This document shows positions 7,277 to 9,091 of a DNA stretch of 64,000 nucleotides, piece after piece (the first letter of the stretch is position 1; each line of letters opens with the position of its first letter). Position numbers and translations under genes: made by a program. The DNA lies in contig NZ_SUTM01000008.1 in NCBI RefSeq assembly GCF_015062935.1, positions 1-64,000 on the forward strand. Reading direction: 5' to 3'. The stretch comes from Methanobrevibacter sp. (GTDB lineage Archaea > Methanobacteriota > Methanobacteria > Methanobacteriales > Methanobacteriaceae). A model generated the notes under the pieces. The model did no database searches. It worked only from the letters and a program-made list of their open reading frames with translations, and had not been told where the DNA came from.

Positions 7277-7777
7277 TTATGCCAAACCAGTGCCGATAAT
7301 CTCCTGAGTGACAAAAGTAACATTTTCTACATAGAATACAGCAGGATATTTATTGCCCAAATCATGATTTTCAATTACATCCCCTTCAAAGTGATTGTAA
7401 ATGTAAACATCAGTTATTCCAGGGTCTTTAGGAATTTTTTCAGCATCCTCAATACTCATTATGACAATTTGATCATTTCCAAAGAAAACACTTTTATTTC
7501 CTAATGATTCCATCCACTTTATAGTTTCTACATCACATCCACTATATTTAGGACCAAGCATTGTATCATTAACAAAACGGCTTAACTGAGTATTACCTGA
7601 AGAAACATTGAATGACAATCGTTCACCCGATTTATCCATTACATCAGAATTATCAGTTAGATTTAAATTAATCATTATTGACAATGCCACTATAACTATA
7701 ACCATGGCAATAATTAATTTTTTGTTATCTTTTAAACATGAATTTAGAAAACCTATTAATTTTGCTAAAATGCCCAT
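7277..7777 (-). CDS. Membrane-anchored hypothetical protein
   Basis: A 166-aa protein with one hydrophobic segment (about residues 20-37, IAMVIVIVALSIMINL) after a Lys-rich N-terminus, then an outward-facing domain with Asn/Ser/Thr-rich strands. No catalytic motif was recognised. The layout resembles the many small anchored exoproteins of Methanobrevibacter. It stands alone, with about 200 bp on its 3' side up to the small RHH gene. The ATG at 7777 has no clear ribosome site. Confidence 0.6.
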   Translation of the reverse strand: MGILAKLIGFLNSCLKDNKKLIIAMVIVIVALSIMINLNLTDNSDVMDKSGERLSFNVSSGNTQLSRFVNDTMLGPKYSGCDVETIKWMESLGNKSVFFGNDQIVIMSIEDAEKIPKDPGITDVYIYNHFEGDVIENHDLGNKYPAVFYVENVTFVTQEIIGTGLA

Positions 7778-7904
7778 ATACTTATTTTATTTTATGATTA
7801 AATAAAATTTCTTTAAAAAAAACAACCAGATAGTTCAGGCTTAAATTAACTTTCAAAAAATCAAATAAAAACATTTATATAATATTAAAATATAAGTATT
7901 ATAC

Positions 7905-8031
7905 GATGTGAATTGAATTTCATATTTGTACATGACACAATTCAACCATTTTATAATCTCCAAAATGATTAGAATATGTTTCATTTAGGAAGTAGTGGAT
8001 TAAAACTACTTCCAAAACTCCCCCCTTTTTT
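7905..8031 (+). ncRNA. Predicted small RNA, copy A (~127 nt)
   Basis: A TATA element (ACATTTATATAATA, 7871-7884) lies about 27 bp before GATGTGAA, the right distance for an archaeal start. The 5' part can fold as GAATTG...CAATTC. Next is a 6-bp stem CATTTT/AAAATG (7947-7952 with 7962-7967) with loop ATAATCTCC. A 9-bp hairpin, GGAAGTAGT (7988-7996) with ACTACTTCC (8005-8013), is followed by a C-run and T6 (8026-8031). CUCC in the loop and the C-run could pair with ribosome sites (GGAG). No open frame of note. Matches copy B. Confidence 0.65.
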
Positions 8032-8172
8032 ACAACAATTTACATATAAATTAAAAATGTGTAACCATATATTTTTTAAAAAAATCGATAGGACTTCTTT
8101 TATAAAAATAAACAACATTTTTTCAGAATAAAATAAAAATATTTAAATAGGATTAAAATAAAAATAATAATC

Positions 8173-8296
8173 GATGTGAAGTATATTTCATATCTTTATG
8201 AACATCAGTCAATCATTTTATAATCTCCAAAATGTTACAAAAATGTTCGAAATCTCGGAAGTAGGAAGACACTACTTCCCAACTCCCCCTTTTTTT
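8173..8296 (+). ncRNA. Predicted small RNA, copy B (~124 nt)
   Basis: Second copy of the unit. A TATA-like ATATTTAAATAGG lies at the same spacing before CGATGTGAA as in copy A. The 5' hairpin here uses TTCATA...TATGAA instead of copy A's arms, so structure may be kept while sequence changes. The stem CATTTT (8214-8219) with AAAATG (8229-8234) and its ATAATCTCC loop are identical to copy A. The terminator hairpin is GGAAGTAG (8257-8264) with CTACTTCC (8272-8279), then C5 and T7 ending at 8296, just short of the convergent dphB stop at 8300. Confidence 0.65.
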
Positions 8297-8299
8297 AAA

Positions 8300-9091
8300 T
8301 TAAACATCATCAAGAATGCTTGGGTCCGCTCCGGCAATTTCTACCAAATATTCTGCTTCGACAATGTGAAGCTTGGACGGAATTACAATACAGTGAAGAG
8401 GTCCGCCGAAATCAAAATCAATCAACTGCTTAATTTTACCCGCCTTGACACAAACATCCTTGGAACCGACACGGGCAATTCCCATTGCCAATGTGTCTTC
8501 ATCAATCAAACCTTCATGGTCAAGATTATCCTTAATGTTCATAAGATATTCCAAACCCTGATTGACAGTCATATAACGGTCCTTATGAGCTTGAATATCC
8601 AGTAAAACTAAAGTATGCAAATCCATTTTAAGATTTTCTTCAATGGCTTCATAAGGGGATTTCGGATAAAAATTATAGTCCGGGAAAGGAATGGTTGTTA
8701 CCTTACCGAATTTATATCCCTGAAGACCTGAAATTGCAGGTGCTGAAGATAAAATTGAGGAGCCGTGAATAACCTCATAATCAATTCCCTTCTTAGAGCA
8801 CTGCACTAAAAAATCACTATGAGTTGTTGCAATCAAAGGATCGCCCCCGGTAATCAAAGCAACATCTAAGCTTTTTGCCTCTTCGATAAATTTATGTTCT
8901 TCTTCAACTTCATTTCTAACCAAAACTTCAATTTCCTTACCGATCAATTCTTCAATAGCTTCAAAACTGGACCCGAATAATCTTGAAGTAAAAAACTCAG
9001 CATAAATTTTATCAACATTTTTTAAACATTCTAAACCTTTAAGAGATATATCTTTCTCATCAAATAATCCTAAACCCACTAAATAAAACAT
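8300..9091 (-). CDS. dphB: Diphthine synthase
   Basis: Dph5-family SAM-dependent methyltransferase that trimethylates the aminocarboxypropyl-histidine of elongation factor 2 on the way to diphthamide. The 263-aa length is typical. It opens MFYLVGLGLFDEKDISLKGL and carries the tetrapyrrole-methylase-type segment ALITGGDPLIATTHSD. No ribosome site precedes the ATG. Only 35 bp separate it from the divergent trm5 start, so the mRNA is probably leaderless or nearly so. Its 3' end converges on small RNA copy B. Confidence 0.95.
   Translation of the reverse strand: MFYLVGLGLFDEKDISLKGLECLKNVDKIYAEFFTSRLFGSSFEAIEELIGKEIEVLVRNEVEEEHKFIEEAKSLDVALITGGDPLIATTHSDFLVQCSKKGIDYEVIHGSSILSSAPAISGLQGYKFGKVTTIPFPDYNFYPKSPYEAIEENLKMDLHTLVLLDIQAHKDRYMTVNQGLEYLMNIKDNLDHEGLIDEDTLAMGIARVGSKDVCVKAGKIKQLIDFDFGGPLHCIVIPSKLHIVEAEYLVEIAGADPSILDDV

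Follow-up and report, generated by a model that had tools for sequence, protein, structure and literature searches.

Small RNAs that mask ribosome sites are known as a kind. In the archaeal methanogen Methanosarcina mazei, the intergenic, trans-encoded sRNA41 masks the ribosome sites of the ACDS cistrons under nitrogen control, and sRNA154 masks the start region of glnA2 with its loop 2, which carries an anti-ribosome-site sequence (PMC5867862). In Staphylococcus aureus, the RNA IsrR forms a duplex of about 31 bp with an fdhA (formate dehydrogenase) mRNA, across its ribosome site and AUG (PMC9410917). In this study, we examined a window of 64,000 nucleotides (the whole stretch of DNA that was analyzed) from Methanobrevibacter sp., in which a small RNA gene, duplicated in tandem, probably gives rise to a trans-encoded antisense RNA that reduces formate dehydrogenase synthesis.

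Like sRNA41, this would be an intergenic trans RNA of an archaeal methanogen that masks the ribosome site of an enzyme of energy and carbon metabolism, presumably repressing it. It differs from sRNA41 in its predicted target (fdhA instead of the nitrogen-controlled ACDS cistrons), in a perfect match of 26 nt, in its tandem duplication and in belonging to another archaeal order. With sRNA154 it shares a loop whose anti-ribosome-site sequence could mask a start region, whereas we saw no feature here that resembles the nitrogen-fixation regulon of sRNA154 or its stabilization of other mRNAs. The likeness to IsrR lies in the putative pairing with an fdhA start, the C-rich single-stranded regions and the AT-rich genome; in contrast, IsrR is bacterial, Fur-controlled and iron-sparing, has several iron-enzyme targets and a different anatomy, and no iron signal is implied here. 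We draw all three likenesses on the manner of action and claim no homology. Within the literature searched, family, lineage and regulon appear to be undescribed, and we found no paper describing a targeted small RNA in Methanobrevibacter.

The two similar plus-strand units lie in a gap of 522 bp between an open reading frame (7277-7777, minus strand) and the diphthine synthase gene dphB, which is a synteny anchor outside the proposed mechanism (Table 1). Each unit measures about 170 bp, and about 133 positions are identical between them in a global alignment. A first-pass annotation of the window had described two adjacent similar units with identical promoter spacing, a common central stem-loop and a hairpin followed by C and T runs, and these observations were all reproduced. 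The start of the AAATAAAAA box precedes the start of CGATGTGAA by exactly 41 bp in both copies, CATTTTATAATCTCCAAAATG is identical in both (at 7947 and 8214), and both contain GGAAGTAG...CTACTTCC, after which come CTCCCCC and then a run of T. The predicted transcripts are separated by about 140 bp, within which the second promoter is located.

Table 1. Features of the duplicated unit and its neighbor (positions in the window)
Feature	Positions	Strand	Evidence
Promoter, copy 1: begins with the AAATAAAAA box; A-rich BRE-like box and TATA box TTTATATA (7874-7881)	7863-7903	+	Conserved from about -47 to 0; spacing equals that of copy 2
Small RNA, copy 1: predicted transcript, beginning with CGATGTGAA	7904-8031	+	Covariance model match 7904-8030, E 1.8e-21; fold z -3.56
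5' hairpin, copy 1: GATGTGAA/TTTCATAT	7905-7926	+	Fold prediction; G-U/A-U and G-C/G-U exchanges among 79 copies
Antisense element, copy 1: complements the fdhA start region over 26 nt without mismatch	7941-7966	+	Duplex -45.6 kcal/mol
Terminator hairpin (7988-8013) and C/T-rich tail, copy 1	7988-8031	+	Compensatory stem changes among copies
Promoter, copy 2: begins with the AAATAAAAA box; TATA box TTTAAATA (8142-8149)	8131-8171	+	Conservation; spacing
Small RNA, copy 2: predicted transcript, beginning with CGATGTGAA	8172-8296	+	Covariance model match 8172-8296, E 3.4e-21; fold z -4.07
ACATCAGTCA block, copy 2: complementary to the modE-like gene start (TG[A/G]CTGATGT)	8202-8211	+	Absent from copy 1
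Antisense element, copy 2: its pairing with the fdhA start includes one G-U	8209-8233	+	Duplex -40.8 kcal/mol; pairing map
Terminator hairpin (8257-8279) and C/T-rich tail, copy 2	8257-8296	+	Conservation in 79 copies
dphB/dph5, diphthine synthase, convergent neighbor	8300-9091	-	TIGR00522, E 3e-100

Both RNAs are predicted to fold into a 5' hairpin, a weak central hairpin with the loop AUAAUCUCC and a terminator hairpin, and both folds were better than those of 200 out of 200 dinucleotide shuffles. In addition, the genomes of relatives contain 79 distinct copies with these elements, and the units are therefore not a product of chance. Among these copies, conservation falls upstream of the promoter, and the 5' hairpin is nearly invariant. 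Different 5' hairpins for the two copies (GAATTG/CAATTC and TTCATA/TATGAA), as proposed in the first-pass annotation, were not recovered, as both copies fold the GATGTGAA/TTTCATAT stem. The related claim of structure kept under sequence change is not borne out for this hairpin and holds for the terminator stem, which shows double-sided changes (GGAAGTAA/TTACTTCC, AGAAGTAG/CTACTTCT and GGAAGAGA/TCTCTTCC). At the level of sequence, the intergenic region thus carries its own promoters (BRE/TATA) and terminators (hairpin plus C/T run), and the two predicted small RNAs, about 125 nt long, each come with an archaeal promoter, two hairpins and a terminator. No Rfam family matched the unit at gathering or relaxed thresholds, in line with the earlier suggestion of a small-RNA gene outside the described families. 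A sigma-70/terminator scan of the locus was set aside as uninformative for archaea, and a promoter-like match on contig C20 was discarded as an ordinary TATA region ahead of an apparent protein gene.

Of 67 genomes of the Methanobrevibacter-type genus, 57 contain the RNA according to a covariance-model search, as advised in the first-pass annotation, and it is typically convergent with dphB. Within a sample of 150 genomes of the order, only two genomes outside the genus matched (G099 and G135), and in both of them unit and dphB are again convergent. A DNA search retrieved the unit from ten relatives within the genus and showed, separately, that query positions 92-117 also recur elsewhere without the rest. 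In a dphB-anchored scan of named genomes, most Methanobrevibacter of the smithii-gottschalkii-millerae-thaueri type, including genomes of M. millerae and M. thaueri, had the unit beside dphB, either once or as a tandem pair, and it was not found at M. olleyae-type, M. curvatus or Methanobinarius loci. The RNA is also present in G024, a genome like that of the human-gut species M. smithii. Extra model matches on other contigs (L185 and L186 in G050, L197 in G052 and a weak one, L198, in G021) suggest that the RNA is dispersed beyond the tandem locus. Downstream of dphB in RO-clade Methanobrevibacter, we observed a different conserved RNA-like element, GGATTAACATCCATTGGG followed by GAACATAGT...ACTATGTTC (loci L067, L064, L065, L068-L070, L076 and L083), for which there was no Rfam match. 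It was rejected as an analog, being complementary neither to RO fdhA nor to modE (-16.7 and -15.5).

The recurring piece of the query proved to be an antisense match, with fdhA as its candidate target. The antisense element of copy 1, TTCAACCATTTTATAATCTCCAAAAT, is the mismatch-free complement, over 26 nt, of ATTTTGGAGATTATAAAATGGTTGAA in the same genome, which comprises the ribosome site, the start codon and codons 2 and 3 of fdhA, encoding formate dehydrogenase alpha (TIGR01591, E 1e-266). The gene is situated downstream of an fdhC-like transporter gene, a name presumed from the gene order fdhCAB. The RNA is encoded on contig C8 and fdhA on contig C2, i.e., away from each other, as befits a trans-encoded RNA. 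When the 2.5-Mb genome was searched with a 19-nt core at up to one mismatch, only fdhA and the two RNAs were found. A 15-nt core, CATTTTATAATCTCC, is present in 63 of the 67 genus genomes (reversed control, 0 of 67), and most of its occurrences map to an fdhA start or to the RNA. The CUCC loop, for which pairing with GGAG ribosome sites had been postulated, forms the center of the 26-nt match, and this perfect and conserved complementarity is that of a candidate ribosome-site-masking small RNA.

Predicted duplex energies set fdhA apart. For copy 1, the duplex with fdhA reaches -45.6 kcal/mol, compared to -20.3 (SD, 3.7) for 75 other gene starts in the window, and for copy 2 it reaches -40.8 kcal/mol, compared to -19.6 (SD, 4.8) for 75 window gene starts; the z-score against window gene starts is about -6.8. 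Across 49 genomes, the mean fdhA energy is -38.2 versus -17.4 for shuffled targets (median z, -7.3). Upon cofolding, the 5' hairpin and the terminator stay intact and the central hairpin opens. Furthermore, in 59 pairs of RNA and fdhA from the same genome, pairing is near-universal at offsets -6 to +19 relative to the ribosome site (about 26 nt) and collapses on both sides. These elements, their conservation and their complementarity are direct observations.

Exceptions and co-variation were inspected in individual genomes. In G135 (genus g17), the fdhA start reads GGAGATTATATAATGG and the RNA CCATTATATAATCTCC, with one base changed per side and the pairing kept; own pairs have core energies of -21.6 and -21.0, swapped pairs of -17.3 and -17.7. 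This mirrored change is a single event, and own and foreign pairs are not told apart by full-length energies. In G008 and G062, the fdhA start has changed along with the antisense segment and pairing is at background; this joint loss, like the mirrored change, speaks for the proposed pairing. A point against it is that in G023, G055 and G058 the RNA is kept and its fdhA pairing weakened. Related genera in which no such RNA was found have a conserved fdhA start as well, and conservation of this start was therefore set aside as evidence on its own. Moreover, GGAGATTATAAAATG is a common ribosome site, and the core is thus shared by other mRNAs. Co-variation comes from few events, and the case for fdhA is made mainly by how long the match is, where it lies, how it is bounded and how widely it occurs.

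Several observations concern other targets. In G023 (L192), the antisense loop has GATCCCC in place of ATCTCC and fits the ribosome site GGGGGAT of its own modE, while its fdhA still has GGAGATTATAAAATG; a change of target is possible. In second copies of three species (L021 in G004, L026 in G010 and L179 in G040), a common antisense segment, CTCTTT..AATCACTRAA, replaces the fdhA element, which suggests another target. A conserved membrane protein of about 255 amino acids without a Pfam or NCBIfam match starts with GGAGATTATAAAATG in several species (L124, L126, L128, L131, L133 and L138, at about 1965-2000) and is a possible lineage-specific extra target; it was rejected as a target in the genome studied here, where its start is not among the matches with up to three mismatches. 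fdhD, the next-best start in this genome (two mismatches), was dismissed as a conserved target because relatives are not complementary (mean, -23.7 versus a background of -21.4), as was pairing of the fdhC leader with the C/T tail, with energies at background. Between the fdhC-like gene (ending at 1940 of L009) and fdhA (starting at 2033), a AAGAAGCTT...AAGCTTCTT hairpin with a T run is found, also in most relatives, which could uncouple fdhC and fdhA expression just upstream of the proposed RNA target site.

The RNA is antisense to the ribosome site and start of fdhA in nearly all related species, and formate use is therefore probably switched off through a block of translation. Each RNA would be transcribed from its own archaeal promoter and end at the hairpin and T run. 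The loop AUAAUCUCC of the central hairpin would meet the ribosome site GGAGAUUAU of the fdhA mRNA, and pairing would then zip through about 26 nt, comprising the ribosome site, the spacer, the start codon and codons 2 and 3, so that ribosomes could not start and translation would be repressed. We infer transcription, pairing in cells, repression and the existence of a controlling signal from the sequence features; the likeliest signals are formate/H2 supply and molybdenum/tungsten status. The observations of the first-pass annotation hold in part and its interpretation is supported, with transcription and regulation as predictions.

Other readings of the locus were weighed against this repressor. 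It would be most surprising if the units were no small RNAs at all and instead formed a cis-acting leader or a riboswitch, encoded a protein or were a mere repeat between genes. The AT-rich intergenic sequence would fit such a view, but the terminator ends the unit and no co-directional gene lies downstream, dphB being convergent, which argues against a riboswitch or leader. The ATG in CGATGTGA at the 5' end is immediately followed by TGA and indels of one and two bases set the copies apart, and a conserved reading frame, which the first-pass annotation would have taken as contrary evidence, is therefore excluded among the copies. Promoter, hairpins, terminator and antisense match are, moreover, conserved together. 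It is very unlikely that the RNA is a decoy or acts against ribosome sites in general, with many targets of which fdhA would be one among several. GGAGATTATAAAATG does start the genes of the membrane protein mentioned above (several species) and of argC-like and flavodoxin-like products (single species); however, the pairing exceeds this common core into fdhA codons 2 and 3 (TCAACC) and into upstream bases with a sharp edge, no other gene start of the genome comes close, and the membrane-protein pairing is limited to a lineage. We also consider it very unlikely that the RNA is a positive regulator or mRNA stabilizer of fdhA: sRNA154 of Methanosarcina stabilizes some mRNAs and blocks others (PMC5867862), but here the ribosome site and the start codon would be fully covered, which should block initiation while the RNAs are paired.

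A further reading, that the RNA is mainly centered on molybdenum/tungsten, is not opposed to repression of fdhA but extends it, and we rate its chances just short of even. Here, the RNA would repress both fdhA, encoding a molybdopterin enzyme, and a ModE-like regulator, and the tandem copies would share out these tasks in part, copy 1 acting on fdhA and the additional block of copy 2 on modE. The modE-like start is among the nine places in the genome with up to three mismatches to the core, and its product has HTH and TOBE domains (TIGR00637, E 1.4e-21, under that model's cut-off). In most genomes, ACATCAGTCA, a second conserved block, is complementary to codons 1 to 4 of the modE-like gene, and mean pairing energy in 52 genomes is -33.4 versus -23.5 for shuffles, but z is below -3 in only 27 of the 52, the background is higher because the target is G-rich and the RNA C-rich, and the energy is weak in the M. 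smithii-like genomes G011 and G024. The RNA tail and the modE ribosome site agree in 46 copies (GGGGG with CCCCC) and 7 copies (GGAGG with CCTCC), but 18 of 75 copies fit neither pattern, which is also confounded by the relatedness of species; among readable modE starts from outside the genus, GGGGG is missing. The role in pairing that had been ascribed to the C run is accordingly suggestive, the GGGGGA ribosome site of the modE-like gene being its best candidate. Copy 1, without the ACATCAGTCA block, pairs more extensively with fdhA than copy 2, and the copies may divide targets between them, but this division is not clean across genomes. The ModE-type molybdate regulator is thus a suggestive, weaker second candidate target than fdhA.

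Repression of fdhA by the duplicated RNA would possibly tie formate use to molybdenum/tungsten status, and a molybdenum/tungsten enzyme and a ModE-like regulator as candidate targets hint at a metal-sparing small RNA of the IsrR/RyhB type. More tentatively, and with rather less confidence than an even chance would warrant, the duplicated archaeal RNA family may constitute a molybdenum/formate regulon that shuts off the Mo/W formate dehydrogenase and the ModE-like regulator together, its tandem copies diverging to divide or change targets (e.g., in G023). If true, such a regulon would be an RNA-based switch for molybdenum/tungsten sparing or substrate choice in archaea, of which our literature search found no earlier example. 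According to a recent review, formate methanogenesis in the rumen is a largely untapped area, and fdh transcripts were missing from rumen samples, in contrast to the fdh genes that these organisms carry (PMC10658910). For the question whether the Methanobrevibacter of rumen and gut use formate, a conserved RNA that would mask the fdhA start is a directly testable candidate for a posttranscriptional switch; its interest lies in its conservation in gut and rumen methanogens and its bearing on their formate use.
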